Below are positions 5,412-58,677 of a stretch of 64,000 nt of DNA, piece by piece. The stretch spans positions 2,480,001 through 2,544,000 of the forward strand of contig NZ_CP044016.1 in NCBI RefSeq assembly GCF_004337365.2. The letters run 5' to 3'. This stretch comes from Rhizosphaericola mali. GTDB taxonomy: Bacteria > Bacteroidota > Bacteroidia > Chitinophagales > Chitinophagaceae. The notes under the pieces were generated by a model. That model was not told the DNA's origin and did no database searches. It was given only the letters and a program-made list of their open reading frames with translations. The translations under genes were made by a program, and so were the position numbers. Each line of letters begins with the position of its first letter. The first letter of the stretch is position 1.

Positions 5412-5421
5412 ACTATCAAAA

Positions 5422-28999: not shown

Positions 29000-29294
29000 A
29001 AATAGTATAATATCTAAAAATTCCTCAATATTATCAATTTGTTATTATATTTTATCCAATAAAAATTTTATTTCATTAGTAAAAATCAAATCCCAAACCT
29101 AATTCACATCAAAATTAACAAATATAGTTTTTATATAATTTAAACTATATTATTTAATACTTCTCATAAGCGATCCATTCTCACATATTTTTATATTAAA
29201 TAATTTTGTTTGAACGATAAAATATTTTAGGAAATGTAAATACTGAATGATCCATTCTAGAAGGAATTTCAGCACCTATTAAGTAAATGGTGAA

Positions 29295-35878: not shown

Positions 35879-35914
35879 AGCTAGCATTTTAACTAAAACA
35901 GCTCATATTTTAAC
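35879..35914 (-). promoter_or_regulatory. Direct-repeat operator candidate upstream of SusC3
   Basis: Two 16-mers, CAGCTAGCATTTTAAC (35879-35894) and CAGCTCATATTTTAAC (35899-35914), match at 13 of 16 positions and are 20 bases apart, two helical turns. They lie 50-85 bases upstream of the SusC3 start. The second contains CATATTTTAAC, also present in the 17962 and 49692 elements. Suggests a regulator site shared across the locus; not tested. Confidence 0.45.
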
Positions 35915-35924
35915 ACATTAACAA

Positions 35925-38348
35925 CTAATTCACATCAAATTCAACAATTGCATTTTTTATTATATTTGAGCTTGCAACCATTTGGATTTGTCCTTTATTC
36001 TTACCGCTTTTAATAATCACTTGTGCTTTACCACCAAACAAATGTCTTTGCCAAGCACCATCGACACATTTATCGGCTTCATGACTACTTGGATCACCAT
36101 TACCGACACCTATAATTTGAGCATCAGTGCCATTTAAGGAAAATTGAATTAAATCATTCGCATTCGGCACTTCTAAACCTTCTTTATCAACAACAGAGAC
36201 ATTTACCACAACAGCATCTTCACCATCAGCCAAGAGTACTTTTTTGGAAGGAGATAATTTAATTTGATAAGGAACATCTGTAGTTTTGACTATAGAGGTA
36301 ATTTCTTTTCCGTTTCTATGTCCAATAGCTTTTAATTCACCCGGCGTATATTTTACATTCCAAGTTAAATGCCCGTCTTTAGGCATCGTCTTTTTACCCA
36401 AACTTTGTCCATTTAAAAATAGTTCAACATCCTCTGCATTGGAATTTATCCAAACCAATTTTTCTTTTCCTTCATCACCTTTCCAATTCCAATGTGGTGC
36501 GATATTTAAAACATCTTTATTGGACCACCAAGCTTGATAATAATAGTAAACTGTTTTGGGGAAACCACACATATCCATTATACCAAAATGCGAATTAATA
36601 TTGGGCCAACGATAAGGCGTAGGTTCGCCTCTATAGTCAAATCCTGTCCAAACAAAACCACCCATATACCATTTTCTTGCATCTGCCTGCGTCCACCAAG
36701 TTTCTGCTTTAGCCGCCCATGAAGGAAATGTTGAGTCATAGTCTGGAACATAACAATTTACTGTATCTTTTATAAAAACACCTCTAGTAGACACCATACT
36801 AGAAACCTCAGAACCGTAAACTGGCTGTTCTGGATGATCTTTGTGATAAGGATCGATACCTTCAAGATGATAATTAAATCCTCTAATTGGAATTACTTCA
36901 TTAACTCCTTTATACACATTGCCCATATTGGCGGCGTAGGATATACCACGAGTCGTATCTAACGTCTTTATTAGATTAATTTGATTTTGCGCAATGCGTG
37001 TACCTATATTATTAGCTTGAGTCAGATATTCCTCATTTCCAATAGACCACATAAATACGCTTGCATGATTTCTATCTCTTTCTACAAGATCGGTGAGTTG
37101 CTTTGCATATTCGTTTCCACTTGTCAATAGTCTGGTTTCATCGAATACCAATATACCCAAACTATCACAGGCATCTAACAACTCTGGTGTGGGTGGATTA
37201 TGTGTCGTGCGATACGCATTTGCACCCATTTCTTTCAATAGACCCACTCTATAGTATTGCAAATAATCTGGTAGTGCAACGCCCACACCTGCATGGTCTT
37301 GATGATTGCTCACACCCAACATTTTCACAGATTTACCATTTAGAAAAAAACCGTCTTTACTATCAAATTTGAATTCACGTATTCCAAATTTAACTTTCAA
37401 ACGATCCAATTCTTTTCCATTTTTTGTAACTACAGTAACGGCTCTATATAAATATGGATTATCCAAATCCCACAATTCCACATTTTTCAAAGCAATAGAT
37501 TGTTTAATCCTTCCGCTTTCGTCAATTGCCAATTGAATCGGTTGGACTTTAGAAGTTCCAATCACCTTACCCTCTCGATTAGTAATTTCGGTAAATACAG
37601 AGATATTTTGGTTTTCTAGACTCTTATTTTCTACTTTAGTTTCGGTATAAATTGTTGCATCTTTACCTTTTATCGCTGTATGTACATAGAAGCCATCTTT
37701 TTGCGCAATATGCACATCGTTATAGTTATTTAACCAGACATGACGATAAATACCCGCACCTTCATAAAACCAACCTTCATCTTGAGTCGCATCAGCACGT
37801 ACAACTAGGGTATTTTTCTTTCCAAAACGGATAAAATCTGTAATATCATAGTACGCAGTCGTATAACCACTAAAATTACCTCCCACATAATAACCATTTA
37901 TCCAAACTTTACTATCTCTATACACACCATCGAATTGGAGTATGTAACGACCACCAGAATCTTGTGCATTTAAAGTAAATGATTTACGGTACCATCCTAT
38001 GGAATTTTCGGGAAATAAACCGCCTACAGGCTTGTAACCATGCGCATCTATATCATCATTTTTTATATACGTGAATGGCAATCCTACGACCCAATCATGT
38101 GGTAGATTGACAGAATCCCAGCCGGATTCATCCCATTTTTCAGAAATCGCAGTATTACTTGTTTCCCCTGACTTAGAAAATACATTACCAATTCCATAGT
38201 TAAAATCACGATTTGGATCTGAAGCATTTCCTAAATGAAATTTCCATCCAAAATCAAAATTTATATGCTTTCTTTCTGTTTGCGCATTGCTTGTTTGAGT
38301 GAAAATGGTTCCAGATATTAATAATGCAAGCAAATATTTATGATACAT
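35925..38348 (-). CDS. GH2 glycoside hydrolase, beta-galactosidase type
   Basis: An 807-residue secreted GH2 enzyme (signal peptide about 1-22). Order: sugar-binding jelly roll (about 25-210), immunoglobulin-like domain (210-325), TIM barrel (325-600) with acid/base Glu439 (WSIGNEE) and nucleophile Glu514 (VYGSEVSS), then a DUF4982-like beta domain (about 620-690) and a C-terminal Ig-like domain. This architecture is common in Bacteroidota beta-galactosidases; beta-glucuronidase or other activity cannot be excluded. It is third in the run GH30-GH43-GH2, 12 bases after the GH43 gene, so it probably finishes galacto-oligosaccharides released by those two enzymes from type II arabinogalactan. 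Confidence 0.88.
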   Translation of the reverse strand: MYHKYLLALLISGTIFTQTSNAQTERKHINFDFGWKFHLGNASDPNRDFNYGIGNVFSKSGETSNTAISEKWDESGWDSVNLPHDWVVGLPFTYIKNDDIDAHGYKPVGGLFPENSIGWYRKSFTLNAQDSGGRYILQFDGVYRDSKVWINGYYVGGNFSGYTTAYYDITDFIRFGKKNTLVVRADATQDEGWFYEGAGIYRHVWLNNYNDVHIAQKDGFYVHTAIKGKDATIYTETKVENKSLENQNISVFTEITNREGKVIGTSKVQPIQLAIDESGRIKQSIALKNVELWDLDNPYLYRAVTVVTKNGKELDRLKVKFGIREFKFDSKDGFFLNGKSVKMLGVSNHQDHAGVGVALPDYLQYYRVGLLKEMGANAYRTTHNPPTPELLDACDSLGILVFDETRLLTSGNEYAKQLTDLVERDRNHASVFMWSIGNEEYLTQANNIGTRIAQNQINLIKTLDTTRGISYAANMGNVYKGVNEVIPIRGFNYHLEGIDPYHKDHPEQPVYGSEVSSMVSTRGVFIKDTVNCYVPDYDSTFPSWAAKAETWWTQADARKWYMGGFVWTGFDYRGEPTPYRWPNINSHFGIMDMCGFPKTVYYYYQAWWSNKDVLNIAPHWNWKGDEGKEKLVWINSNAEDVELFLNGQSLGKKTMPKDGHLTWNVKYTPGELKAIGHRNGKEITSIVKTTDVPYQIKLSPSKKVLLADGEDAVVVNVSVVDKEGLEVPNANDLIQFSLNGTDAQIIGVGNGDPSSHEADKCVDGAWQRHLFGGKAQVIIKSGKNKGQIQMVASSNIIKNAIVEFDVN

Positions 38349-38360
38349 AATTCTATTTAT

Positions 38361-39356
38361 TTATTTTAATGTAGAAAATTTCCAATCTGAGTTCCAATCG
38401 ATGGATATCATATCCTTTTCAAATGTGATTGGTAACCATTGATACCGGCTATCTTTTAAATTTTTCGGATTCCACTTATCTCCTACATAGATCCAATGAG
38501 GTTGTTTACCTTTTTGATATTTGAATGCAAAAGCGGGTTGTCCGAAAAATGAAATATCCGCATTTGGACCATGAAATGGATTATACAATTCTTTATAGGG
38601 GCCAAATATGGTAGAGGCAGAATAAACATTGCCTTTATTTGGTCTCCAACCTGTGCAAGCGCTGGTTAATAGATAATAAGTATTATTTTCTTTGATCATA
38701 ACAGGAGCTTCACGCTGTTGACTAAAAAGCATCGTATCTTCTTTAGTAACATCCAAATAATCCTGTGTTAATTTAACAATGCGCATATCATAGTTTTCAT
38801 TAGAACTATAAATATGATAGGCAGTACCATCATCATCTACAAAAAGATTCATATCCCGCGACATATTACCATTAGGTCGAAAACTTTTTTTATAAATATA
38901 TGGCCCAGTAATAGATTTACTTGTTGCAATGCCTGCGCGTGCAGCAGCATAACCTTTATCTTTTAACTCCAAATGAAACCACATCACATACATTTTAGTT
39001 TTAGCATTATAGATTACTTTGGGACGCTCCATAATACAACCCGTTTCAATATCTGAACCAATAGTTGAAGACGTTCCTAAAGCTAATTTTTCAAACTTCC
39101 AATTATATAAATCTTTGGATGAATACACATTGACTCCTCCTGAGTGCGCGGCACCACGTTTCTCTCCAAACCAATAGTATTTACCATTTGCAAATAACAA
39201 ATCACCTCCATGAGCATTAATCGTATCTCCATTATTATCTAACCAAATACGATCAGGTTTGATGTTATCATATTGCACTTTTTGAGCTATGCCATTAAGT
39301 GAAATATTATTCAGTATTATTGTGAAAATTAAAATTGAAATATATTTCGTATTCAT
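38361..39356 (-). CDS. GH43 protein, exo-beta-1,3-galactanase-like (subfamily 24-like)
   Basis: A 331-residue secreted single-domain five-bladed propeller of GH43. Segments INAHGGDLLF, DIETGCIMERPKVIYN, NMSRDMNLFVDDDG and QQREAPVM are those I associate with exo-beta-1,3-galactanases. Near the N terminus, where ordinary GH43 enzymes have the Asp general base, this protein has INAHGG. Absence of that Asp is a known oddity of the galactanase subfamily. Candidate acidic residues are Glu110, Asp168 and Glu216. It would attack the beta-1,3-galactan backbone of AGPs and bypass side branches. It sits 4 bases after the GH30 stop and 12 bases before GH2. Subfamily assignment is by memory of motifs. Confidence 0.78.
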   Translation of the reverse strand: MNTKYISILIFTIILNNISLNGIAQKVQYDNIKPDRIWLDNNGDTINAHGGDLLFANGKYYWFGEKRGAAHSGGVNVYSSKDLYNWKFEKLALGTSSTIGSDIETGCIMERPKVIYNAKTKMYVMWFHLELKDKGYAAARAGIATSKSITGPYIYKKSFRPNGNMSRDMNLFVDDDGTAYHIYSSNENYDMRIVKLTQDYLDVTKEDTMLFSQQREAPVMIKENNTYYLLTSACTGWRPNKGNVYSASTIFGPYKELYNPFHGPNADISFFGQPAFAFKYQKGKQPHWIYVGDKWNPKNLKDSRYQWLPITFEKDMISIDWNSDWKFSTLK

Positions 39357-39360
39357 TTAA

Positions 39361-40911
39361 TTATTTTTTTATTACGATTGTGTAGATACTTCTCGGTTGT
39401 AGTTGCAACTCTGACGTATTAGTAGAAATGGATTGTTTGGATAAATTATGTTGTTCGTTTGTAAGATAGACAGTCATCGAACTATATTTTTTCAGGTTGG
39501 TAATGTTTGGATGGATATTTTTTTCTTCATTGGAATAATTTATCAGCACAACTACAATCTGTTTATTATCCTCAAATGCGGAAACCATTAAGTCTTTTGC
39601 CTGTTGTACTTCATTTAATCCATTATTTACAACAGCTTTAATTCTGTGCATATTGGGTAATATAAAATGACTATAATTACCTAAAGCCCACAACATTTTC
39701 GTAGGAATAACTTTTCCTGACACAAATGTAGAATCGGAGGATTGCAATGCTAATAGGAAATAGCGCGTATCGAAATCTGGATTCCCAGGCTCGACACTAT
39801 TCCAAAATTGCCAAGCCTTTGCATTGCCATACACAAAATCATCATGTATTACTTTACTCAAAAACAAAGCACAATCCATAGCGGACACTTTTCCCTTTTT
39901 GCCCTCTTTGTAATTATCTCCCAACATGGAGTATTCCGTTTGCCAATAAGAAGTACCATATTTTTCCGCTGTATCACGGACATTTTTTCGTATTGCAATT
40001 CTAGTGGAGTCATCTCCGTCTGTATAATAACTATGACCAGCAGCAGCATTTAAAACATGAGAATATTTTGATACATCTAAAGAACTATTTCTATTAAAAA
40101 GCATTTGAACCTGTTCACCTGCTCGTCCTTTTTTCGAATACAGATATTCTAAATGTCCAGCTTCGGGTGTTATAATTTTCGAATTTATTTTATTTTTAAC
40201 TAATGCACTATCTAAGGCCTTTACAATTTTAGAAATTTCATAGTTGGTCCATGGAGAACCTTCCTGACTATTGTTATACCAATCCCATTGCGGTTCATTG
40301 ACAGGACTGATATAATTAAAATGAATTTTTTCTTTAGCAAAATGAGATAGTATATTGGCTAGAAATTGTGCATAATTGCCATATTCATTTGTTTTTAAAT
40401 TGGAGGTATAATCCTTTATTGTTTTAAAACCGAGTCCATTGGTGGTCATAAATACGGGTTGCGTATTAGAAAATGCTATCAAATCTTTTACGCCATACGC
40501 TTTAGCTTTTTTGACAAACCATAAATAGCCAATTTGTTTGTTCCAATCATAGTGACCATTTGAATCTAAAAAACATTCAACTCTTTTTCTAAAATCTTTA
40601 ATGCGACTTGAATCACCTAATTCTGTAGTACCACCTCCAATATTAAAGCGAAAAGACGACAACCCAATACCTTCGGGGTTGCCGTCTTTATCCATTTTTT
40701 TACTAAATAACCAGCGAGCCATATTTTCTCGCTGCTCCTCACTCCAATATTTTCCAATAAACTCTGTAAACCATGCCGATGATGCTCCTATATTATCTAT
40801 TCTTTGAAAAGATATTTTTGAATCTATTTCTATCGAAATAGAGGAATTGCTTTGGGCATGTGTTATATGAATTCCTAAAAATAAAAATAGTGATAGTGTA
40901 GTCTTAAACAT
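39361..40911 (-). CDS. GH30 glycoside hydrolase, endo-beta-1,6-galactanase-like
   Basis: A 516-residue secreted enzyme (signal peptide about 1-19) with a (beta/alpha)8 barrel and an all-beta side domain formed from both termini, as in GH30. Acid/base Glu206 in ISPVNEPQWDW and nucleophile Glu326 in WQTEYSML are clear. The N-terminal FQRIDNIGASSAW and the EPQWDW region resemble GH30 subfamily 5 endo-beta-1,6-galactanases, which cut the 1,6-galactan side chains of AGPs. Clustering with a GH43 exo-1,3-galactanase-like protein and GH2 supports this. Other GH30 activities (glucanase, fucosidase) are less likely by context. Confidence 0.82.
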   Translation of the reverse strand: MFKTTLSLFLFLGIHITHAQSNSSISIEIDSKISFQRIDNIGASSAWFTEFIGKYWSEEQRENMARWLFSKKMDKDGNPEGIGLSSFRFNIGGGTTELGDSSRIKDFRKRVECFLDSNGHYDWNKQIGYLWFVKKAKAYGVKDLIAFSNTQPVFMTTNGLGFKTIKDYTSNLKTNEYGNYAQFLANILSHFAKEKIHFNYISPVNEPQWDWYNNSQEGSPWTNYEISKIVKALDSALVKNKINSKIITPEAGHLEYLYSKKGRAGEQVQMLFNRNSSLDVSKYSHVLNAAAGHSYYTDGDDSTRIAIRKNVRDTAEKYGTSYWQTEYSMLGDNYKEGKKGKVSAMDCALFLSKVIHDDFVYGNAKAWQFWNSVEPGNPDFDTRYFLLALQSSDSTFVSGKVIPTKMLWALGNYSHFILPNMHRIKAVVNNGLNEVQQAKDLMVSAFEDNKQIVVVLINYSNEEKNIHPNITNLKKYSSMTVYLTNEQHNLSKQSISTNTSELQLQPRSIYTIVIKK

Positions 40912-40919
40912 AAAAGCTA

Positions 40920-40960
40920 TTTTTTACACCGTCAAATATCCCCATTAAAAGTGTAAAAAA
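40920..40960 (-). terminator. Weak hairpin between oxidase and GH30 genes
   Basis: Inverted repeat TTTTTTACAC / GTGTAAAAAA (40920-40929 with 40951-40960) with a 21-base loop, in the 58-base gap after the oxidase stop. AT-rich stem, so at best a partial terminator or mRNA-processing hairpin. Confidence 0.3.
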
Positions 40961-40969
40961 CAATATCTT

Positions 40970-42226
40970 CTATGCAAATCTTTCCACATCGAACGCAGAC
41001 AAGTCCACACTAGTAGATTCGCGTTGCAAAAGTTCTTTCACTAACAATCCTGTTGCGGATCCCAAACTAATACCTAATTGGGAATGCCCAGTAGCGACTA
41101 CAAGATTCTCCCATTTTTTAGTTTTACCAATATAAGGCATTCCATCACCAGAAGTCGGGCGGAACCCATACCAAATCTTATCCTTTACATCATCCAATTT
41201 TATATTTATTTGAGGGAAAAAATCATGTACAGCCTTCAGAATGCCTTCCACTCTATTTAGTCTCGGAGGCGTATCAACAGAAGTAATTTCCATGGTACCT
41301 CCAAATCTTATTTTATCCCCATCCATAGGCGTAAAAGCACAACGTCCTTCTACCAATATACCAGGATGTTGGATATTCATCTGACTATTGGAAACGGGTA
41401 GCGTTATTGAATATCCTCGGCCACCAACCAATGGCATTTTTAAGTTCAAATCTTTATTAAATGAGGCGGACCAAGATCCTGCAGCTAAAACGAATGCATC
41501 AGCAGACATTTTACCTTTTGTCGTTTCAATCTCAGTAATATGCCCTTGCTTACCATGTAACCCAAGCACTTCAGTATGGGACAATAGTTGCACCCCTTTA
41601 TTTTTCAAATATTCTATCAAATGCGCCATTAATTTTTGAGGATACAAATGACCATCACATCTATAGTGAATTGCACCAATGGCATCCACTTCGGTATTGG
41701 GTTCTAAACGATCCAAACCAGCTTTATCTTCTAGAACGACATCCAAACCTAATTTTTGCCCAAATGCAACGGTCTCTGCACATTCATGTTTTGCCGCTGC
41801 TGTTTTGAATATTTCAATCATTCCTTTGTCATCATAAGCAAAGTCAAAATCTTTTTGCCAAACTTTTTCGTATTCATGCTTCGCTAACAAACCAATATCT
41901 CTCAAGGGAATGCCATGTTTTTCAATATTTTCATGTTTGGCACTTTTCAAAAATGCCAATCCCCATTGAATCAAATCCTTATTTAATCTTGGCTGTATAT
42001 AAAACGGACTTTTAGAATCAAACATCCACTTAATCCCTTGTTTTACTACACCGGGAGTGGCTAATTGGATATAGTGACTAGGACATACAAAACCCGCATT
42101 ACCGTAAGAACAATTATCCAAATAATCATTCTTTTCTACAACTGTAACATCCCATCCAGCTTCAACTAAATATTTGGCGGAGGACAAACCGATAATTCCA
42201 CCGCCTATAATAATTACTTTACTCAT
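40970..42226 (-). CDS. FAD-dependent cis-4-hydroxy-D-proline oxidase (DadA-like)
   Basis: A 418-residue cytoplasmic flavoprotein of the DAO/DadA fold. The N terminus IIGGGIIGLSSAKYL is the FAD dinucleotide-binding motif, followed by VVEKND; the C-terminal GDGMPYIGKTK and ATGHSQLGISLGSATG complete the FAD site. DadA relatives oxidise D-amino acids. Next to a 4-hydroxyproline epimerase and the deaminase/dehydrogenase genes, the best substrate is cis-4-hydroxy-D-proline, giving 1-pyrroline-4-hydroxy-2-carboxylate. The gene lies between GH146 (21 bases upstream) and GH30 (58 bases downstream), that is, embedded among glycosidase genes rather than beside the other pathway genes. Confidence 0.85.
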   Translation of the reverse strand: MSKVIIIGGGIIGLSSAKYLVEAGWDVTVVEKNDYLDNCSYGNAGFVCPSHYIQLATPGVVKQGIKWMFDSKSPFYIQPRLNKDLIQWGLAFLKSAKHENIEKHGIPLRDIGLLAKHEYEKVWQKDFDFAYDDKGMIEIFKTAAAKHECAETVAFGQKLGLDVVLEDKAGLDRLEPNTEVDAIGAIHYRCDGHLYPQKLMAHLIEYLKNKGVQLLSHTEVLGLHGKQGHITEIETTKGKMSADAFVLAAGSWSASFNKDLNLKMPLVGGRGYSITLPVSNSQMNIQHPGILVEGRCAFTPMDGDKIRFGGTMEITSVDTPPRLNRVEGILKAVHDFFPQINIKLDDVKDKIWYGFRPTSGDGMPYIGKTKKWENLVVATGHSQLGISLGSATGLLVKELLQRESTSVDLSAFDVERFA

Positions 42227-42247
42227 TATATTAAAATCTTTAAATTG

Positions 42248-44620
42248 CTATTTTGATTTTATAGTTCTAATTTCAAATGCTCGACCTGCAGTATAACCAT
42301 GATTAGCTAATAATGAAATTTTCACTTGGGATTTTCCTTTCGTCAATTCAACTGGAATTAAATATTCTTTATCGTAAAATTTATCCTCTTGAAAATCTCC
42401 TTTGGTAGTTTCTGTAAGTAAAAGTTTTCCATCCACAACGATATCAAATTTTCTATTTTTATCCGCACCGATATAGTTAATTAACAAACTATTCGTCGAA
42501 TTAGGATCAACCTTCATTGTAAAGTTTAAAGATCCACTAGCACGCGCTTCTCTACCATGCTTTCCAAATGCTTCACTTACATAACTATTTCCTGTAGATG
42601 TAAAATTATGATCACGTTCTGGTTGCATCTCTCCTATTCTAAATAGATCTATAGTACGTAGTTCGATTTCCTTTTCATGTTCCTTTTCCTTGATATATTC
42701 CGCTTTTCTCACAGACCATTCTTCATTGGTAAATTTATCCCAATACACATTGTAGTGACCTTGATCAGAGGCGTAGAATGGTTTTATAGAAACCTGAATC
42801 GGTTGTGCTGCATCTGTAGTTTTGAATAAAAGATTATGAATATCTGTAGATTTCACCCAATTATTTACATTATTATTTTCGGAAAGAATTACGGGCACGC
42901 CTTCTACTGGATCTGGATTTTTCGCACCCAATTGTCCCGCTAACAAAACTGGTCCATAGTAAAATGCTAATCTTTTCGAATTATCATTCATACTTTCTGC
43001 ATATAATTTCTTTGGAATACTATAGGTAATTTTATCCCCTAATTTCCACTTGCGATGAATATCAAAATAGCCATCAGTACCTATGCTAGAATTATATTTT
43101 TTACCATTTACATAAATAGTAACTGCATCATTTTCTACCCAAGATGGTTTACGTAATTTGATCGTAAATTCGGTAGCTTTCTTTGGCGAAACTGCAATTT
43201 CTATTTTATCTGAATGCAAAATATTAGATTGAATTTGAATCGTTGCATTTTTTTCTTTCCATTTCAACTCAGAAGGAAGGAATAAATTAACATACAAACT
43301 CTTCGCATCAGGTGATTGAAAGTAAATAGCTTGGTTATATTTTGTATGATTTTCCATACCTGTACCTACACAACAGGTGAACGTATTAAATTGATCACTA
43401 TATTCTTTTTGTCCGCCCATACGTAGTGGAACAAAATAACAGAACATACCGTCACTATCATTCTGAGAACCTAAAATGCCATTCACCAATGCACGTTCAT
43501 AATAGTCAGCATAATTAACATTAGGATTCCAACTAAAAATCGCCGCAGTCAATTTTTCCATGTTATAAGTAGCGCAAGTCTCACTATTATCATCACTTAA
43601 TCTCGTACTTAATTTGTCTTCATCTCCAAAATATTCATAGTTACCATTTCCGCCATTGGCATATGTATGATGATTCACTATAGTTCTTTGCATGTATTGC
43701 GCAATAATACTATCACGAGAAAGACCTCCGTAAATATATTGATCAGCGGAACCCAATCCTTTTGGAATATTGGTATTAGAGTGTTTATTTTGAATAGCAT
43801 CTTTCCTTTCTGACAAAGGAATCATGACAAAATCATCAATCCAACGGTAGGATTGTTTTAGATATTTTTGTTCACCAGTTATAGCATAAATCATTGCTAA
43901 GACATCATTCATTCCTCCAAATTCGCAACGCATCATTTTTTGCATTAAGGAATCATCCAAATGGGTAATCAAACCATCTGACCAGTCTGCCATACCCTTC
44001 ACCACCGTTAATGCCTCTTTATTTCCACCATAAATATAAGCATCAACTAAACCAGCCATAACTTTGTGTACCGTATACCAAGGAGACCAACCGCCATTTA
44101 AATCAAAACCGCCAGAATGAACGATACCTTTTCTAACTAGGCCAAAAATACTATCCTCTTTAGGAATCGCACCGACATAACCAGTACCTCTTTTTGTTTG
44201 GCATTTTGCCAATTCCCCTGTTATGTAGTCAATCCTTGTTTTCAATTGCGGGTCTTTGGTAGACGCATACAACATACTGATTGCAGAAAGATAATGCCCC
44301 AAACTATGACCAGACAAGCCATCACTTTCCCAGCCACCATAGGCATCGCCTTTTGTTGGTAAGCCTGCATTGATATAGAATCTCGCCAACAATCTATTAG
44401 GGTCCAATAATAAAAGATATGTGGAATCTAATTGTCTAGCTTTATAAAATTCTGAACCAGGAAGTAATTTCACGTCAGATAAGTCAAACCCATAAGCCTT
44501 GATATTCGCTACAGGTTTGACTTTAAATCTTGCATCATTTCGTTGTGGAATATAAGATTGCGCTTGTATGCCACAATACACAAAAGAAGAACATATTAAA
44601 CTTAATAGTATTTTTTTCAT
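42248..44620 (-). CDS. GH146 beta-L-arabinofuranosidase (DUF1680 family)
   Basis: A 790-residue secreted enzyme (signal peptide about 1-20) of the DUF1680 superfamily, closer to GH146 (B. thetaiotaomicron BT0349 type) than to GH127. Characteristic segments are LLDPNRLLARFYINAGL, YGGWESDGLSGHSLGHYLSA and NGGWSPWYTVHKVMAGL. The zinc/cysteine catalytic set is Glu347, Cys349 (SETCATYN), Cys416 and Cys417 (FTCCVGTG). Expected to release beta-L-arabinofuranose from arabinans or arabinosylated hydroxyproline. A C-terminal domain of about 150 residues may bind sugar. It starts 2 bases after the permease stop, and the D-hydroxyproline oxidase follows by 21 bases, so it is tied to hydroxyproline metabolism at operon level. 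Confidence 0.9.
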   Translation of the reverse strand: MKKILLSLICSSFVYCGIQAQSYIPQRNDARFKVKPVANIKAYGFDLSDVKLLPGSEFYKARQLDSTYLLLLDPNRLLARFYINAGLPTKGDAYGGWESDGLSGHSLGHYLSAISMLYASTKDPQLKTRIDYITGELAKCQTKRGTGYVGAIPKEDSIFGLVRKGIVHSGGFDLNGGWSPWYTVHKVMAGLVDAYIYGGNKEALTVVKGMADWSDGLITHLDDSLMQKMMRCEFGGMNDVLAMIYAITGEQKYLKQSYRWIDDFVMIPLSERKDAIQNKHSNTNIPKGLGSADQYIYGGLSRDSIIAQYMQRTIVNHHTYANGGNGNYEYFGDEDKLSTRLSDDNSETCATYNMEKLTAAIFSWNPNVNYADYYERALVNGILGSQNDSDGMFCYFVPLRMGGQKEYSDQFNTFTCCVGTGMENHTKYNQAIYFQSPDAKSLYVNLFLPSELKWKEKNATIQIQSNILHSDKIEIAVSPKKATEFTIKLRKPSWVENDAVTIYVNGKKYNSSIGTDGYFDIHRKWKLGDKITYSIPKKLYAESMNDNSKRLAFYYGPVLLAGQLGAKNPDPVEGVPVILSENNNVNNWVKSTDIHNLLFKTTDAAQPIQVSIKPFYASDQGHYNVYWDKFTNEEWSVRKAEYIKEKEHEKEIELRTIDLFRIGEMQPERDHNFTSTGNSYVSEAFGKHGREARASGSLNFTMKVDPNSTNSLLINYIGADKNRKFDIVVDGKLLLTETTKGDFQEDKFYDKEYLIPVELTKGKSQVKISLLANHGYTAGRAFEIRTIKSK

Positions 44621-44622
44621 TC

Positions 44623-46047
44623 TTATACTTTTTGTAAACTTTCATTTGATAGTTTCTTTTTATTCAAATAACTATAAATAGGAAGTCCCAGTAAAACAAT
44701 AAATAAGCCCGGCCAAGTAAATTTTGGTTTATATATAAATAGGGAAATAGAAATCACCGAAGCGACTATAATATAAATAATTGGCAAAACTGGATACCCT
44801 ATTGCTTTATAAGGTCGAGCTAAATTGGGTTGTGTCTTTCTCAACTTAAAAATACCCGAAATCGTTATAATATAAAATAGCAACACTACAAAAATTACAT
44901 AATCAAGCAAATCTCCATAATGACCACTCAAACATAAAATAGAAGCCCAAAAACATTGAATCCATAAGCCATTTGCAGGAACCGAATTTTTATTTAAAAC
45001 TCCTGCTTTTTTCAAAAATAAACCATCATGTGCCATCGTATGATAAACGCGAGCTCCCGTAATTATCAAACCATTCACACATCCAAATGTGGAAATCATG
45101 ATCAATATTGCCATAATTCGCGTTCCTGTTAGTCCAAACAATCTCGAACTCGCATCTATCGCAATTCGATCATTTTTTGCAAAAGCAATTTCTTTTAATG
45201 GCAATGCGGATAAATAAACAAAATTGACTAACAAATAAAGCGCTGTAACTATAATCGTTCCCAACACTAAACTTAAGCCAATATTTCGTTCTGGTTTTTT
45301 AACTTCTCCAGCAATAAAAGCAATCGTATGCCAACTATCCGAACTAAACAAACTACCCACCATAGCAGCTGCAAAAGCACCAAATACCGCAAAACCAGAA
45401 TAGTTACTAAACCCATCGAGCGACAATTTTCTAAACGAAAAGGCATTTTGCCAATTCTGATGCCATACATTTCCATTTGCACCAAAATAAAAGCCGAAAC
45501 CGATTAAACCAATAAGCGAACACAATTTTGCAATTGTAACAACGGTCTGAATGTTTTTTCCATGATTCACGCCAAGCGTATTGATGGCAGTCAATCCTAT
45601 AATCAAAACAATAGTCAATATTTGCGCAGCGGAAATTGTAAAACTAGAAAATTGTAGCAAAATATGATCTTCACCTAAAGAGGGAAATAAATAAGCGGCA
45701 AATTTGGAAAATGCAACACCCACGGCCGCAATAGTCCCAGTTTGAATAACGGAAAAGAAACTCCAACCGTATAAGAATCCCATTTTTTTACCAAATGCTT
45801 CTCTTATATAAGTGTACTGCCCACCCGCTTTGGGAAACATACCGCTTAATTCACCATAACTCAATGCACCTATTATAGTCACTAAACCAGTCAAACACCA
45901 CAATAGTATCAACCAACCCGAAGAGCCCACATTTCTAATCATATCCGCGCTAACTATAAATATCCCAGAGCCTATCATAGCTCCAGCCACAAACATAGTC
46001 GCATCTAACAAACTTACATTTCGTTTATAATCATTTTCATCTGTCAT
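44623..46047 (-). CDS. APC-family amino-acid permease, probable hydroxyproline/proline importer
   Basis: A 474-residue polytopic inner-membrane protein of the amino acid-polyamine-organocation superfamily with about 12 transmembrane helices. TM1 has the substrate-binding GAMIGSGIF motif, and the conserved GELSGMFPKAGGQYTYIREAFG follows TM2. It resembles SteT/LAT-type transporters. Located between the hydroxyproline epimerase (65 bases upstream, with a hairpin) and GH146 (2 bases downstream), it is the obvious candidate to bring hydroxyproline or small peptide-derived amino acids into the cytoplasm. Specificity cannot be read from sequence. Confidence 0.85.
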   Translation of the reverse strand: MTDENDYKRNVSLLDATMFVAGAMIGSGIFIVSADMIRNVGSSGWLILLWCLTGLVTIIGALSYGELSGMFPKAGGQYTYIREAFGKKMGFLYGWSFFSVIQTGTIAAVGVAFSKFAAYLFPSLGEDHILLQFSSFTISAAQILTIVLIIGLTAINTLGVNHGKNIQTVVTIAKLCSLIGLIGFGFYFGANGNVWHQNWQNAFSFRKLSLDGFSNYSGFAVFGAFAAAMVGSLFSSDSWHTIAFIAGEVKKPERNIGLSLVLGTIIVTALYLLVNFVYLSALPLKEIAFAKNDRIAIDASSRLFGLTGTRIMAILIMISTFGCVNGLIITGARVYHTMAHDGLFLKKAGVLNKNSVPANGLWIQCFWASILCLSGHYGDLLDYVIFVVLLFYIITISGIFKLRKTQPNLARPYKAIGYPVLPIIYIIVASVISISLFIYKPKFTWPGLFIVLLGLPIYSYLNKKKLSNESLQKV

Positions 46048-46101
46048 AGTCCATCATTTTCAAAAAATAGCACAGTTGCAGTAGTAGTAATCAAGAGAAA
46101 A

Positions 46102-46129
46102 GCTTTTCTGTCTTATAAAACAGAAAAGC
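46102..46129 (-). terminator. Hairpin over the epimerase stop codon (attenuator-like)
   Basis: A perfect 10-base inverted repeat GCTTTTCTGT / ACAGAAAAGC (46102-46111 with 46120-46129), 8-base loop, followed on the minus strand by TTTTCTCTT. The stem includes the last codons and the loop the stop codon (46113-46115) of the epimerase, so translating ribosomes would melt it. Probably tunes expression of the permease and downstream glycosidases. Confidence 0.6.
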
Positions 46130-47120
46130 CCAATGCATACGGATCGTCCTCGGGATCAATCGTAATCGTATTATATCCATAGACGCGAGCCCAACCTTCA
46201 ATACCAGGACGTACAGCAGGCATACCGCCAACGGTCGTCTCCTCTTCTATCGTACCGATAAATTTCGATCCGATAATACTTTCGTGTATAAATTTATCGC
46301 CTTTTTTCAATAAACCTTTTGCGTACCATTGTGCAATTCTTGCAGAGGTTCCTGTACCGCAAGGACTACGATCTATCGCTTTATCACCATAAAATACGGC
46401 ATTTCTCGCTGTAGACGTTGGATCTAAAACTGCTCCCGTCCATTCAATATGATGTACAGAATTGATAGTCGGATCTTCTGGATGAACAAATGTATACTGA
46501 GCATTAATCCTGTCACGAATTACTCTCGCCCATGCGATTAATTTCTCCACAGAATAATGTTCCAATCCTTTGAAATTATCTTGTACATCTACGATAGCGT
46601 AGAAATTACCACCGTAGGAAACATCAAATTTTAATTCCCCTAAATCTGGACATTCTACCGTCAAATCCGTCGCAGCAAGAAAGGATGGAACGTTGGTCAA
46701 TTTGACACTTTTGACCTTATTTCCTTCTTGTTTGTATTCGATATTTACATATCCAGCAGGCGCTTCCATACGAACGATACCCGGTGTTTTGGGAACGATC
46801 AAACCTTCTTCAATGCCCGCAGTAATCGTACCGATCGTACCATGACCACACATCGCTAAACAACCACTTGTCTCAATAAATAAAACACCTACATCATTTT
46901 TGGGATCAGCAGGTGGATATAAAATAGATCCGCTCATCATATCGTGACCTCTTGGTTCGAACATCAAGCCCTTACGAATCCAATCATAATTTTGTAAAAA
47001 ATATTGCCTTTTTTCACTCATAGTTACGCCCTCTAATTGAGGACCGCCACCAGCAACCAATCTCACTGGATTACCACAAGTATGCGCATCAACACAAAAA
47101 AAAGTTTTTTTCATCTTCAT
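46113..47120 (-). CDS. 4-hydroxyproline 2-epimerase (proline racemase family)
   Basis: A 335-residue cytoplasmic enzyme converting trans-4-hydroxy-L-proline to cis-4-hydroxy-D-proline, first step of the bacterial hydroxyproline pathway. Both catalytic cysteines are present: Cys91 in LAMCGHGTIG and Cys254 in DRSPCGTGTSA. The N-terminal DAHTCGNPVRLV is typical of the hydroxyproline epimerase branch. Two Cys rather than Cys/Thr separates it from the trans-3-hydroxyproline dehydratase group. The start at 47120 overlaps the previous gene by one base (TGATG), implying translational coupling with the semialdehyde dehydrogenase; a TTG at 47123 or an ATG at 47114 are alternatives. Confidence 0.93.
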   Translation of the reverse strand: MKMKKTFFCVDAHTCGNPVRLVAGGGPQLEGVTMSEKRQYFLQNYDWIRKGLMFEPRGHDMMSGSILYPPADPKNDVGVLFIETSGCLAMCGHGTIGTITAGIEEGLIVPKTPGIVRMEAPAGYVNIEYKQEGNKVKSVKLTNVPSFLAATDLTVECPDLGELKFDVSYGGNFYAIVDVQDNFKGLEHYSVEKLIAWARVIRDRINAQYTFVHPEDPTINSVHHIEWTGAVLDPTSTARNAVFYGDKAIDRSPCGTGTSARIAQWYAKGLLKKGDKFIHESIIGSKFIGTIEEETTVGGMPAVRPGIEGWARVYGYNTITIDPEDDPYALGFSVL

Positions 47121-48598
47121 CAATTTTGAGATTCATTCGTCCAATTATCATCTACCAAACGCCAAATTTTTAATGGATTAGCAGCTTTTAATTCATCAGG
47201 AAGGAAGTTTTCAGGAAAACCTTGATAGCAGATGGGTCGCACCCACCTCTTAATCGCCGTAGTACCAACGGAAGTATAACGTACATCTGTAGTCGCTGGG
47301 AACGGTCCACCATGAATCATGCTACTACAAACCTCCACTCCAGTAGGCACATCATTGATAATAACTCTACCAGCAAGGCTTGTTTGTAAATCAATTATAT
47401 TAGGATAATCCGCTAAATCTTTTTCCGTAGCCATCAATGTTGTAGTTAATTGACCACCTAAGGACGCAAGAATAGTTTCTAATTCAGATAAATCTTCCAC
47501 TTCTACAACTATAGAATATGGACCAAATAATTCTTCTTGTAAATATTCTTTTTGCAAAAAGGTTTTGCCTTCTGTTTTTACTACGGTTGGATAGCCTTCA
47601 ATATCCACAGCTTCTGTATCCGCCTTACCAACTATAGAAACATCTGATTTTTCAAGTATACGATTCAATCCAGTATTGTATGCTTTTTGAATACCCGCAT
47701 GCAACATTTTTTGAGGTAATACTTTTGCAATTTCATCTTTTAAAACGGCTAAAAAAGTATCCAAACTAGAAGATTTTACCGCCAAAATCAAACCTGGGTT
47801 CGTACAAAATTGTCCCATCCCTACCGTTATAGAGCCCGCATATTGTTTGGCTAAAGCTGTAGGATCTTGAGCTAATTTATCCGAAAATAAAACGACAGGA
47901 TTAATACTGCCCATTTCTGCAAATACAGGAATTGGATTTTTGCGTGCTTTCGCATATTCTACTAATGCTAAACCACCTTTTTGAGAGCCAGTAAAACCAA
48001 CACCTGCAGTAACTGTATGTTGCACTAATAATTTACCTGCATCAAATGATGTATCTGTCACATGCTGAATCGTAAACTCAGGCATACCACTAGAAATAAC
48101 CGCACTATCTAATATTGCAAATACTTTATCTGAAAGCTTGGGATGACCAGGATGAGCTTTTATAACTAAGGTAGAACCAGATGCTAATACACTAGCAGAA
48201 TCACCACCAGCAGTAGAAAATGCAAAAGGAAAATTACTCGCACCAAATACAACAACAGGACCGACTGGCTGTAACATTTTACGAATATCCGCTTTTGCTA
48301 AAGGCTTACGGTCAGGCTTAGCTTGATCTATCGAAGCTTCCACCCAACTACCTTCCTTTAATAATGCAGCAAATGCTTTTAGTTGATTGGTAGTTCGCGA
48401 CAATTCACCTTGAAGTCTTCCTTCGGGCAAATGACTTTCTTCCATTGCCAATGGAACTAATTCTGTTCGTTGACTTTCCAAAGCATCAGCCAAATTTTCA
48501 AGAAATTGTGCACGGTCTTTTTTGCTACTTTTTTTATATATGGTAAATGCATTTTTAGCATTTACCATAATTTGATCTATATTTTCTTCTAATGTCAT
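47120..48598 (-). CDS. 2-oxoglutarate semialdehyde dehydrogenase (aldehyde dehydrogenase)
   Basis: A 492-residue aldehyde dehydrogenase superfamily protein, last step of hydroxyproline catabolism (2-oxoglutarate semialdehyde to 2-oxoglutarate, NAD(P)-linked). Catalytic Cys265 lies in GMGQFCTNPGL, general base Glu228 in FAEMGSINP; the cofactor region has FGASNFPFAFSTAGGD and VIKAHPGHP. These segments match the type III enzyme found in hydroxyproline and proline-derived pathways rather than succinate-semialdehyde dehydrogenases. It follows the deaminase by 28 bases and overlaps the epimerase start by one base. Confidence 0.9.
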   Translation of the reverse strand: MTLEENIDQIMVNAKNAFTIYKKSSKKDRAQFLENLADALESQRTELVPLAMEESHLPEGRLQGELSRTTNQLKAFAALLKEGSWVEASIDQAKPDRKPLAKADIRKMLQPVGPVVVFGASNFPFAFSTAGGDSASVLASGSTLVIKAHPGHPKLSDKVFAILDSAVISSGMPEFTIQHVTDTSFDAGKLLVQHTVTAGVGFTGSQKGGLALVEYAKARKNPIPVFAEMGSINPVVLFSDKLAQDPTALAKQYAGSITVGMGQFCTNPGLILAVKSSSLDTFLAVLKDEIAKVLPQKMLHAGIQKAYNTGLNRILEKSDVSIVGKADTEAVDIEGYPTVVKTEGKTFLQKEYLQEELFGPYSIVVEVEDLSELETILASLGGQLTTTLMATEKDLADYPNIIDLQTSLAGRVIINDVPTGVEVCSSMIHGGPFPATTDVRYTSVGTTAIKRWVRPICYQGFPENFLPDELKAANPLKIWRLVDDNWTNESQN

Positions 48599-48626: not shown

Positions 48627-49541
48627 TTAAAGATGCAAATAATCAGGCAAACTAGGTCTGCACGCTAATCTTTCTTCAATAATTTCAATAGCTTTTGCTC
48701 TTTTTTCTCCACTCAATGGAACTCTGGGAGCACGTACAAATTCATTTCCTATACCTGTATATGTTTCTACTAATTTAATATATTGTACCAATTGTGGATC
48801 TATGTCAAATTCCAATAAAGGTAAAAACCATCTGTAAATTTCTTGAGCTTCTTTATATTTTCCAGCTTTTACCAAGTTTACAATGGCAACAGTCTCAGCA
48901 GGAAGTGCGTCCACCAAGCCAGCAACCAAACCATCAGCACCAGCACAAAGTTCTTCGAATGTAATCGTATCTACACCACACAAAATTTTAAATCTGTCAC
49001 CAAATTTATTTTTCATTCTAGTAACATTGGTGATATCTCTAGTTGATTCTTTTACAGCTTCAATAGTAGGGATATCCACCAATTGGCTGAACATATCTAA
49101 AGTAATTTCGATTTTATAGTCAAATGGATTATTATATAAAATAATAGGCAAATCAGTCGCGGCTGCAACAGTTTTGAAATATAATACAACTTCATCATTT
49201 GAAGCTTTATATCTCATTGGAGGTAGCAACATCAAACCGCTTGCACCCCAAGATTTTGCATCTTTAGCAAGACTAATTGCATCTCTTGTCGCACCTTCTG
49301 CAATATTTACAATTATAGGGAAATCTGCACCTAAAACTTCAATAGCTTTTTTTACAAGTAATTCTTTTTCTGATTTTGTAATGGTACTAGCTTCACCTAA
49401 TGATCCGCCAATAATAATACCACGAACACCAGCTTCTTTTTGAGCCAATAAATTTTTACCAAATAATTCTAAGTCTAATTCTTCTTCTTTCGTAAATGCA
49501 GTAGTCACGGCAGGAAATACGCCATCCCATTTAAAACTCAT
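48627..49541 (-). CDS. 1-pyrroline-4-hydroxy-2-carboxylate deaminase (DHDPS/NAL superfamily)
   Basis: A 304-residue (beta/alpha)8 aldolase-like enzyme. Schiff-base Lys164 (IEAVKEST), Tyr136 (ILYNNPF) and the GGSLGEAST loop (45-53) are the superfamily hallmarks. Among DapA-like proteins, the partner genes decide: beside a hydroxyproline epimerase, D-hydroxyproline oxidase and semialdehyde dehydrogenase it is predicted to deaminate and dehydrate 1-pyrroline-4-hydroxy-2-carboxylate to 2-oxoglutarate semialdehyde and ammonia. First gene of the long minus-strand run, read divergently from the AraC regulator across a 219-base control region. Confidence 0.88.
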   Translation of the reverse strand: MSFKWDGVFPAVTTAFTKEEELDLELFGKNLLAQKEAGVRGIIIGGSLGEASTITKSEKELLVKKAIEVLGADFPIIVNIAEGATRDAISLAKDAKSWGASGLMLLPPMRYKASNDEVVLYFKTVAAATDLPIILYNNPFDYKIEITLDMFSQLVDIPTIEAVKESTRDITNVTRMKNKFGDRFKILCGVDTITFEELCAGADGLVAGLVDALPAETVAIVNLVKAGKYKEAQEIYRWFLPLLEFDIDPQLVQYIKLVETYTGIGNEFVRAPRVPLSGEKRAKAIEIIEERLACRPSLPDYLHL

Positions 49542-49578: not shown

Positions 49579-49681
49579 TTTCACTGATTTTACAAGTATT
49601 TCACAATAATTAATCATTTCATACCAAATATTAACCTTGTTTGAATAAATTTTCTTCCTAACCGAATAAAAAATAAAAATT

Positions 49682-49707
49682 AACCAATTCTAACCATATT
49701 TTAACCC
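49682..49707. promoter_or_regulatory. Three TAACC direct repeats, probable AraC-type operator
   Basis: TAACC occurs at 49682, 49692 and 49703, starts 10 and 11 bases apart, so all lie on one face of the helix, 54-79 bases before the AraC start and about 140-165 bases before the deaminase start. More TAACC/TTAACC copies occur at about 49632 and 49658. The last pair is identical to the 16-mer at 17962-17977 upstream of SusC1. Likely bound by the adjacent AraC protein; inference. Confidence 0.5.
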
Positions 49708-49760
49708 ATTTTATCACAATTAAATATTTTAATGTTAATTTTAGGTATAAAATGTAAGAG

Positions 49761-58656: not shown

Positions 58657-58677
58657 TTATATAGTCTGAAGTTTTTT

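Follow-up and report, generated by a model that had tools for sequence, protein, structure and literature searches.

The bacterial pathway for trans-4-hydroxy-L-proline (Hyp) of Zhao et al. (2014, eLife, PMC4113996) draws on four enzyme superfamilies encoded in one neighborhood; its main text, as far as available, makes no mention of glycosidases, Chitinophaga, Spirosoma, or Pedobacter. Regulation of Hyp catabolism is treated in sections of PMC6608401: in Streptomyces coelicolor one regulator, the GntR-type repressor HypR, serves both Hyp catabolism and the secreted collagenase SCO5912, whose gene lies elsewhere in the genome, and in Pseudomonas aeruginosa the lhp genes are activated by the AraC-family protein LhpR (cited in PMC6608401), with glycosidases unmentioned in those sections.

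The sugar side of Hyp-rich glycoproteins is the subject of other work. Bifidobacterium longum HypBA and arabinogalactan protein (AGP) clusters use GH127/GH146, GH43_24, and GH30_5 enzymes on Hyp-linked arabinosides and AGP, and the available portions of both reports keep to the sugars, with a Hyp catabolic pathway unmentioned (PMC10850190, PMC8939339). The GH146 enzymes XeHypBA1 and Bll4HypBA1 hydrolyze Araf-β1-Hyp, although substrate specificity differs among GH146 members (PMC10850190). Bacteroides degrades gum arabic AGP through PULs (Cartmell et al., 2018, via PMC8939339), and Hyp catabolism is again unmentioned in the excerpt. For Latescibacteria, GH127/GH30-based breakdown of extensin and AGP was proposed in silico; the text available names arabinose as the extensin product and describes no cluster with Hyp catabolism (PMC4454575). 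A literature search, mainly of open full text and by title or abstract start, gave a weak negative: no report of Hyp catabolic genes clustered with GH127/GH146 was among the best matches listed, and the available parts of the eLife (PMC4113996) and gum-arabic (PMC8939339) papers hold no sign of glycosidase-Hyp clustering.

The locus considered here lies in Rhizosphaericola mali (Chitinophagaceae; GCF_004337365.2, NZ_CP044016.1, positions 2,480,001-2,544,000 of the forward strand), a stretch of 64,000 nt referred to below as the window. To the four superfamilies of Zhao et al. (PMC4113996) it adds interleaved glycoside hydrolases, SusC/SusD proteins, and peptidases. Like the HypR regulon in the sections cited (PMC6608401), it appears to tie Hyp catabolism to secreted enzymes for a Hyp polymer, but its putative regulator is AraC-type and its glycosidases, apparently for plant glycoproteins, are physically interleaved with the catabolic genes. 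AraC-family control of Hyp catabolism would be shared with LhpR, a likeness at the level of regulator family, across different phyla (PMC6608401).

Hydroxyproline Genes and Interleaved Glycosidases

The genes run HypD-ALDH-HypE-permease-GH146-oxidase-GH30-GH43-GH2, all on the minus strand (as are all genes below except AraC1), with successive gaps of 28, -4, 65, 2, 21, 58, 4, and 12 nt, the 58 nt separating oxidase from GH30. The original prediction had placed the end of the permease 2 nt ahead of GH146 (44623 versus 44620) and the oxidase 21 nt after GH146 (42248 versus 42226), away from the epimerase and deaminase; these spacings are correct, and it is the permease and GH146 that intervene, with HypE, ALDH, and HypD upstream. 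GH30 (39361-40911) falls beyond the interval 40970-46047 with which that prediction dealt. The whole 64-kb window yielded neither a tRNA nor an Rfam family reaching the gathering threshold.

The Hyp gene set comprises a two-Cys epimerase, a DAO-superfamily oxidase, a DHDPS-superfamily deaminase, and an ALDH in one neighborhood. HypE (46113-47123), a trans-4-hydroxy-L-proline 2-epimerase by NCBIfam NF010578 (582.6 bits, cut-off 376), retains the two Cys motifs of the active site, MCGHG (91) and PCGTG (254). HypD (48627-49541; DHDPS family, PF00701 181 bits), a predicted Δ1-pyrroline-4-hydroxy-2-carboxylate deaminase, has the motifs YNNP at residue 136 and AVKES at residue 162. HypH, the ALDH (47120-48598; PF00171), is a predicted α-ketoglutaric semialdehyde dehydrogenase with best PDB matches 3v4c (NADP+ ALDH) and 1eyy. 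HypO (40970-42226; FAD-dependent D-amino-acid oxidase family, PF01266 DAO 222 bits) is the top-scoring of 20 DAO matches in the genome; all 25 NCBIfam matches listed, of 57, fall under their cut-offs, and its predicted role as a cis-4-hydroxy-D-proline oxidase comes from gene context, not from a curated model. Context likewise predicts Hyp as the substrate of the APC-type amino-acid permease (44623-46047; PF13520 186 bits). Together, HypE, HypO, HypD, and ALDH are predicted to carry out the conversions of the Hyp pathway and to support growth on L-Hyp. From 141 HypE places listed, 120 Chitinophagaceae loci were fetched, the window's own being among the remainder, and homologs of HypO, HypD, and HypH occur in 102, 98, and 90 of them, respectively.

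The interleaved GH146-type β-L-arabinofuranosidase (42248-44620; PF07944 365 bits) is predicted to be exported, its N-terminus being signal-like as judged by eye. Its best PDB matches (5opj, 6yqh, and 8qf8; 453 bits), which we take to be GH146 structures, stand far above the next, 8k7x (227 bits), and GH127 structures (66 bits or less). Residues E329, E347, C349, C416, and C417 (ETC and CC motifs) are invariant in 29/29 aligned sequences, and the catalytic Glu/Cys motifs are present in 40/40 GH127 and 29/29 GH146 sequences. Cleavage of Araf-β1-Hyp is the predicted activity. For the neighboring GH30-type gene (PF14587 349 bits; signal-like N-terminus, predicted export), described in the original prediction as galactanase-type, galactanase activity is possible, the closest matches being PF14587 and 3clw, an entry titled just 'conserved exported protein'. 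The next gene (38361-39356), a predicted exported GH43, is by its matches clearly of the exo-β-1,3-galactanase type (6eug, 6euf, and 7bys, galactan 1,3-β-galactosidase; 3vsf and 5flw, exo-β-1,3-galactanase), and GH43_24 is presumably its subfamily. It is followed by a GalA-type GH2 β-galactosidase, also predicted to be exported (35925-38348; NF041462 1043 bits, cut-off 900).

Farther along are a GH97 of α-galactosidase type (8781-10748; PF10566 358 bits; retaining α-galactosidase model NF053844 708.5 bits, below the cut-off of 800), a GH127 (5422-7842; PF07944 357 bits, PF20736, PF20737), and a GH51-type α-L-arabinofuranosidase (2838-5477; PF22848 156 bits, PF06964 69 bits). The window has the makeup of a PUL: besides an AraC regulator and seven GH genes (GH146, 30, 43, 2, 97, 127, and 51) it holds three pairs of TonB-dependent outer-membrane transporters and their SusD partners, namely SusC1 (32989-35829; PF07715/PF00593) with SusD1 (31550-32971; SusD-like_2, PF12771 218 bits), SusC2 (26113-28971; PF07715/PF00593) with SusD2 (24690-26093; SusD-like_2, PF12771 221 bits), and SusC3 (14628-17873; PF07715, PF13715) with SusD3 (13060-14592; PF07980 105 bits).

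Peptidase-like genes lie among these pairs: a serine carboxypeptidase-like (S10) protein with a signal-like N-terminus (29848-31386; PF00450 44 bits; carboxypeptidase Y in the PDB, 34.7 bits), a DUF885 protein (22447-24207; PF05960 149 bits), presumably a peptidase, with homologs in 21 of the 120 loci, and an M61 glycyl aminopeptidase-like protein (18040-19530; PF05299 120 bits). DUF5695 (19548-22280; PF18951 1178 bits) has a predicted polysaccharide-lyase-like fold (model pLDDT 73; the top Foldseek match, at E 4e-22, is the polysaccharide lyase BACCELL_00875, 5no8/5nok). A metallopeptidase-like protein with an HExxH motif (HEFSH) and no Pfam match (7893-8747) adjoins GH127, and its homolog also lies beside GH127 in three other loci (L115, L116, and L200). 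The structure model of u284 (pLDDT 54) is too poor for use, and its PDB profile search gave just two weak matches, the better at E 0.0093 (a designed protein).

Co-transcription from HypD through GH2 is plausible. The 2-nt and 21-nt gaps leave no room for a site like the operator described below, and no such site was found in the 65-nt HypE-permease or 58-nt HypO-GH30 gap. Both wider gaps contain hairpins (-16 kcal/mol at 46100-46131 and -13 kcal/mol at 40918-40962, respectively), which could terminate or attenuate the transcript. Scans for consensus sigma-70 promoters (62 sites versus 61.6 in shuffles) and terminators (9 versus 7.8) were uninformative. Bacteroidota promoters follow a -33/-7 pattern, of which nothing was found between HypD and SusC1.

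A Candidate AraC Operator

AraC1 (49761-50651, plus strand; PF12833 and a cupin-type N-terminus) is divergent from HypD and is the proposed regulator of the locus; a divergent homolog adjoins HypD in 31/87 loci and 15/46 genera. AraC-type operators typically consist of direct-repeat half-sites about two helical turns apart, placed ahead of the promoter and beside the regulator gene, and the candidate here is GGTTAAWATNTG with a weaker half-site 21 nt on (column information 0.3-1.0 bit; spacing read by eye). Two strong sites precede HypD, one distal (49674-49708, minus strand; weight-matrix score 28.1, higher than in any of 40 shuffled windows, maximum 19.2) and one proximal (49604-49638, minus strand; 22.4). 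A third precedes SusC3 (17945-17979, minus strand; 24.6, 71 nt ahead of the start, 0/1000 shuffles). The weak sites before SusC2 (29025-29059, minus strand; 12.9, 5/1000 shuffles) and SusC1 (35883-35917, minus strand; 8.5, 3/1000 intergenic shuffles), each 53 nt ahead of the start, score within the range of shuffled windows and are favored by single-region shuffles only, nine regions having been tested. A matrix trained without the window's sites ranks HypD, SusC3, and HypD as its top three window matches, and 20 of 31 motif copies sit 60-95 nt upstream. This candidate AraC operator, common to Hyp and SusC genes, goes beyond the original prediction.

The motif was first chosen by visual inspection of the window and of its relatives, so the 34 matches against 0.8 expected in 33 regions are partly circular, these being the same regions; the sites before SusC, GH127/146, and peptidase genes are the independent part of the evidence. 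Among relatives, scores of at least 13 were found before 7/16 SusC genes, 5/39 operon-first peptidases, 11/102 operon-first HypE genes, and 5/43 free-standing (operon-first) GH127/146 genes, against 5/937 unlabeled operon-first and 0/127 housekeeping controls, in a scan that omits genes with identical first 121 nt or with upstream sequence shorter than 150 nt. Just 39/158 HypD genes reach that score, 19 of the loci being training loci, so the operator is confined to certain lineages. With at most one mismatch, the motif occurs in 21/24 regions whose AraC1 is at least 38% identical and in 0/9 with 37% or less, a cut-off chosen post hoc; in one locus, L046, the sole match is on the opposite strand. 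Across the genome the exact 12-mer shows no enrichment (14 matches versus 12 for the reversed control), nor does the one-mismatch form in the window (9 versus 6.8). The covariation makes AraC1 a candidate to bind this motif. The cluster is probably jointly regulated.

Recurrence in Related Bacteria

The Hyp operon might have come by chance to lie in a PUL region, with the glycosidases inserted without a functional link. The window is indeed crowded with PUL genes, and GH127/146 is missing within 10 kb in 69/119 family HypE loci, many of the fetched loci reaching a contig end before that distance. However, GH127/146 homologs occur in 50/119 family HypE loci (28/52 genera) against 1.2-4.3 expected (these counts exclude L122, where one genome has a second racemase, 40% identical). 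The enrichment does not extend to GH2, as 35/134 listed PF07944 genes but 0/110 listed GH2 genes, the control, lie within 12 kb of HypE. Of the 18 genomes for which exactly one PF07944 copy is listed, eight carry it at the HypE locus, where 0.08 would be expected; L091 is not counted among the eight because its match (71 bits), a divergent PF07944 protein, is not its listed copy. Across 294 genomes, 114 have both HypE and PF07944, 25 HypE only, 51 PF07944 only, and 104 neither; such genome correlations ignore kinship except on the tree, which makes their p-values too small. Outside the family, GH127/146 occurs in 5/20 loci, taken from 68 places with E < 1e-130, and never between HypE and HypO. 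Some named loci (e.g., L129 and L010) repeat sampled genomes, so the named and sampled sets are not independent. GH127/146 at HypE loci is thus common, not universal.

A GH127/GH146 gene lies between HypE and HypO in 31/93 comparable Chitinophagaceae loci, a character that changes 22 times on the HypE tree, at least 10 of them forced by starred branches (six short or ORF-less loci are left out). The window HypE clusters at 99* with three loci of identical order. A single insertion of the glycosidase into the operon is disfavored by the forced changes, in which gain and loss are not distinguishable. The permease-GH146-oxidase order recurs in 4/119 sampled relatives from two genera, so that of the junctions in question permease-GH146 and GH146-oxidase are not peculiar to this strain; the oxidase-GH30 junction was seen in no other examined locus, which suits a chance arrangement. 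By tblastn, neither GH30 (E 1e-12) nor GH43 was matched in the other loci.

The enrichment, the repeated changes on the tree, the lack of enrichment of listed GH2 genes, and the operator-like motif, which also precedes some free-standing GH127/146 genes, make chance neighborhood very unlikely. That the sugar and Hyp genes are selected together, as originally proposed, is well supported, and the linked hydroxyproline-arabinoside arrangement recurs in many related bacteria.

Proposed Function and Significance

The locus quite likely serves complete use of plant Hyp-rich glycoproteins (arabinogalactan proteins and extensins), both sugars and protein core, under AraC1. Exported GH43_24-type, GH2, GH30, GH51, GH127, and GH97 enzymes would trim the galactan and arabinan chains, S10-, DUF885-, and M61-like peptidases would cleave the protein core, and SusC/SusD pairs would bring fragments in. 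GH146 would take the last arabinose off Hyp, and the permease would import the freed amino acid, which in the cytoplasm would be epimerized by HypE, oxidized by HypO, deaminated by HypD, and oxidized by ALDH to α-ketoglutarate. AraC1 probably activates the Hyp operon and neighboring SusC operons through their common direct-repeat operator.

Alternatively, the substrate might be pectin (rhamnogalacturonan-II, arabinan) or another arabinan polymer, with GH127/146 acting on pectic β-arabinosides and wall-protein Hyp as a by-product. The window GH127 resembles the aceric acid hydrolase model NF049879 (497 bits, below the cut-off of 950), but a pectic substrate leaves unexplained the Hyp pathway bracketing GH146 and the operator-like site common to some peptidase genes, and the GH43_24-type and GH2 set suits arabinogalactan proteins; we regard it as very unlikely. 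About as unlikely is that HypD and ALDH chiefly serve oxidative L-arabinose breakdown (2-keto-3-deoxyarabonate to α-ketoglutaric semialdehyde to α-ketoglutarate), the node common to Hyp explaining the clustering: DHDPS- and ALDH-family enzymes act in both pathways, and some relatives' operons hold aldose-epimerase-like and weakly SMP-30-like genes, but the genome has an AraA_N (arabinose isomerase) homolog (PF02610, E 4.5e-87), which points to the usual isomerase route, and neither an arabinose dehydrogenase nor an arabonate dehydratase was recognized among the scanned window cluster genes.

The cell walls of plants and green algae contain Hyp-rich glycoproteins, and the literature searched treats degradation of the sugars separately from degradation of the protein core. 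A locus coupling de-arabinosylation to Hyp oxidation points to organisms and genes potentially able to mineralize the whole molecule, and it suggests substrates for the uncharacterized neighbors DUF5695, DUF885, and the HExxH protein. The candidate operator would let a regulon be read from sequence across many genomes, in a form open to testing. More tentatively, and at somewhat under even chances, several Bacteroidota lineages may have a Hyp regulon whose AraC-type activator responds to the core amino acid as its inducer and turns on the proteins that release this amino acid, namely outer-membrane importers, β-arabinofuranosidases, and peptidases. If so, the inducer of a glycan-degrading locus would be its peptide anchor and not an oligosaccharide, and such 'glycoprotein utilization loci' would form a class distinct from ordinary PULs.

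Gene Order and Enzyme Identities

Nine genes of R. mali, all on the minus strand, form a putative operon: in transcription order, HypD (DHDPS-type deaminase, 48627-49541), ALDH (HypH, 47120-48598), HypE (epimerase, 46113-47123), an APC-type permease (44623-46047), a GH127/146-family enzyme (GH146, 42248-44620), the DAO-family oxidase HypO (40970-42226), GH30 (39361-40911), GH43 (38361-39356), and GH2 (35925-38348). An AraC-family gene, AraC1 (49761-50651, plus strand), is divergent from HypD. The intergenic gaps, in the same order, are 28, -4, 65, 2, 21, 58, 4, and 12 nt. The measured coordinates bear out the 2-nt and 21-nt gaps flanking GH146 in the original prediction of an interleaved permease-GH146-oxidase-GH30 unit, but GH30 lies outside the interval assigned to that unit (40970-46047). 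Hairpins at the two widest gaps (46100-46131, -16.1 kcal/mol, and 40918-40962, -13.2 kcal/mol, both minus strand) could be attenuators, lowering read-through. Downstream of GH2, still on the minus strand, follow SusC1-SusD1, an S10-like peptidase, SusC2-SusD2, DUF885, DUF5695, and an M61 peptidase, then SusC3-SusD3, a fasciclin-like protein, the protein u341, GH97, the protein u284, GH127, GH51, and DUF5695. At 58072-59748 (plus strand), a weak match to sigma-70 region 2, narrowly below the Pfam cut-off, is followed by a trypsin-like protease; this has no relation to the cluster.

HypE passes the curated NCBIfam model NF010578 (582.6 bits; cut-off 376) and keeps both catalytic cysteines. The window HypD, ALDH, and oxidase are members of three superfamilies included in the trans-4-hydroxyproline pathway in the available text of PMC4113996. 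We infer the substrate of HypO from its co-occurrence with HypE (homolog in 102 of 120 family loci), because none of the 25 NCBIfam matches listed, of 57, is above cut-off. The closest structures to GH146 (5opj, 6yqh, and 8qf8; 453 bits) are presumably those of the GH146 enzyme BT0349, and the Glu/Cys motif residues are conserved in 29/29 GH146 and 40/40 GH127 homologs longer than 500 aa. Two characterised GH146 enzymes are described as cleaving Araf-β1-Hyp, the sugar nearest hydroxyproline (PMC10850190). The window GH43 matches solved exo-β-1,3-galactanase structures and GH2 passes the GalA model; GH30 is assigned at family level, its matches not indicating a galactanase subfamily. By eye, GH146, GH30, GH43, GH2, SusC/D1-2, and the peptidases have signal-like N-termini and the hydroxyproline enzymes do not. 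GH127 (5422-7842) resembles an aceric acid hydrolase model (497 bits, below cut-off), which makes a pectic RG-II role possible for it.

Two DUF5695 proteins (19548-22280 and 65-2836, minus strand) represent a family that recurs beside hydroxyproline operons in some Chitinophagaceae and in Pedobacter loci. A structural model of the former (pLDDT 73) has as its best Foldseek match the polysaccharide lyase BACCELL_00875 (5no8; E 4e-22, 14% identity), which we take to act on AGP; the lyase-like fold suggested by the model is a lead only. A protein without a Pfam match (7893-8747, minus strand) carries an HExxH motif (HEFSH) and, downstream, a conserved AEYWAEGTQ motif; it adjoins GH127 in the window, L115, and L116, occurs in L200, and is a candidate peptidase for glycoprotein cores.

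Recurrence in Related Genomes

Of 294 Chitinophagaceae genomes, 139 have a HypE homolog (E ≤ 1e-50). Loci with flanks of at most 10 kb in either direction were taken for 120 of the 141 HypE places listed, and 119 remain after leaving out a distant paralog (L122). A GH127/146 homolog is found in 50/119 loci (strong tblastn match in 49; the weakest, in L091, is to a protein that Pfam assigns to PF07944), against a chance expectation of 1.2 from scored copies per genome (at most six candidates scored in each), or 4.3 when all first-look candidates count as copies. Such loci span 28 of 52 genera, 16 of them with the gene between HypE and HypO, an arrangement present in 31 of the 93 loci having a same-strand downstream HypO. 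Where exactly one PF07944 copy is listed, it lies inside the HypE locus in 8/18 genomes vs 0.08 expected; HypE and PF07944 co-occur in 114 of the 294 genomes, with HypE alone in 25, PF07944 alone in 51, and neither in 104 (enrichment and co-occurrence tests take genomes as independent). As a control, among the best 150 matches listed per family (GH2 from 98 genomes, PF07944 from 294), genes no more than 12 kb from HypE number 0/110 for GH2 (counted in genomes with HypE) and 35/134 for PF07944; the real number for GH2 must exceed zero, because the window GH2, about 10 kb from HypE, ranks below the matches listed. In a HypE tree of 114 rows, built by a quick method with SH-aLRT as its sole support measure, there are 22 changes of the between-HypE-and-HypO label, at least 10 of them on starred branches, so the arrangement was gained or lost repeatedly.

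The full order HypD-ALDH-HypE-permease-GH146-HypO with a divergent AraC gene recurs in 4/119 loci of two genera (L009, L010, L012, and L025), the HypE of three grouping with the window HypE at 99 (starred). The permease-GH146-HypO part of the predicted order is thus shared with relatives, but GH30, like GH43, has no tblastn match in 220 loci. The window GH2 has one weak match there, in a named locus, and at an E cut-off of 1e-12 none in the 120 loci of the family. Other lineages have a different insert, HypE-GH127-GH146-HypO, with partners including GH51, a GH2-like protein, a glutaminase-A-like protein, aldose epimerase, and GH36 or GH95; a few other genes in the interior fit models for apiosidase, GH3, GH27-type melibiase, or GH130/43, and an additional one hits PF07944. 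Operons of the compact form HypE-GH127-(GH2-like or glutaminase-A-like)-GH146-HypO occur in several genera (L046, L049, L055, L061, L064, L073, L080, and L107), and many such operons neighbour FA hydroxylase, BshC, or SMP-30-like genes. Outside Chitinophagaceae, GH127/146 is present in 5/20 loci and lies between HypE and HypO in 0/20. GH127 is upstream of HypD in 7/9 Mucilaginibacter loci, the remaining two contigs stopping shortly before HypD; in the Pedobacter loci, genes for aminopeptidase P and DPPIV are present in 4/4, M1 in 3/4, DUF885 in 3/4, and GH146 in 1/4, and both Chryseobacterium loci carry aminopeptidase P genes.

Operator-Like Sites

The motif GGTTAAWATNTG, with at most one mismatch on both strands, has 34 matches in 33 AraC1|HypD regions (the window's included) vs 0.8 from shuffles, a comparison that is partly circular because the motif was chosen by eye from the same regions. 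A weaker second half lies 21 nt beyond it, and 20/31 copies are 60-95 nt before the gene start. With an identity cut-off set after the data were seen, the motif is found in 21/24 regions in which AraC1 shares at least 38% identity with the window protein and in 0/9 at 37% or less.

A 35-nt matrix built from 27 sites (19 loci, nine genera, window sites excluded) ranks HypD distal (28.1), SusC3 (24.6), and HypD proximal (22.4) highest in the window; the best score in 40 shuffled windows is 19.2. The SusC2 (12.9) and SusC1 (8.5) sites are inside the range of shuffled windows; both end 53 nt ahead of the start codon and outscore 995/1000 and 997/1000 own-region shuffles, respectively. Among the nine regions tested, DUF5695 has a weaker site (5.2; 9 of 1000 own-region shuffles), and the permease, GH30, S10, and DUF885 have none. 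The exact 12-mer by itself is not specific: it has 14 matches in the genome vs 12 for the reversed control. Three intergenic matches fall in the cluster vs 0.15 expected; the remaining eleven comprise two intergenic matches (ahead of tRNA synthetase and PAP2 genes), four within ORFs, and five with no same-strand downstream gene in the 3 kb examined.

In relatives, 250 nt upstream of 2717 genes were scanned at a threshold of 13 (the analyst's choice), with related loci (L023/L026; L184/L185/L206) inflating the counts. Sites precede SusC (7/16), GH127/146 (operon-first 5/43, all 5/86; L156, L157, L160, L209, and L200), peptidases (operon-first 5/39, all 8/89), HypE (operon-first 11/102, all 11/202), GH97 (1/1), HypO (1/164), and unlabelled genes (operon-first 5/937, all 5/1501), and are absent before housekeeping genes (0/127), AraC1 (0/83), GH51 (0/10), and DUF5695 (0/8). 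HypD itself has a site in only 39/158, mostly training loci; from these counts, the site is a feature of certain lineages rather than of all. In Chryseobacterium, sites also lie upstream of a Pfam-confirmed malate:quinone oxidoreductase gene (L192, 3923-5497) and a same-length gene (L195, 3936-5510); in these genomes the regulon may extend to the TCA cycle.

Proposed Action on Plant Glycoproteins

The hydroxyproline pathway, GH146 chemistry, and PULs are already known separately. The Streptomyces HypR regulon, as described in PMC6608401, places hydroxyproline catabolism and an extracellular depolymerase under joint control and is a precedent, although its depolymerase is a collagenase whereas those of the window are plant-glycoprotein glycosidases; the same source notes an AraC-type hydroxyproline regulator in Pseudomonas, the type proposed here. 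Among the papers listed by full-text literature searches, none has a title or opening abstract lines describing hydroxyproline catabolism combined with plant-glycoprotein glycosidases, and as far as those listings reach the combination may be new.

The available text of PMC13164431 describes extensin hydroxyproline as bearing one to four arabinofuranoses, the longest chain being α-1,3, β-1,2, β-1,2, β, and extensin serine as bearing α-galactose. We infer that the window enzyme set fits extensin bond by bond: GH51 would remove the α-arabinose, GH127 and GH146 the β-arabinoses, and GH97 (GH36 in relatives) the galactose on serine, while peptidases would degrade the protein core and the GH43_24-type enzyme, GH2, and GH30 would act on arabinogalactan proteins. 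The HypD-to-GH2 genes are plausibly co-transcribed, and AraC1 would act through the operator-like sites. GH146 would supply free hydroxyproline to the hydroxyproline pathway of its own putative operon.
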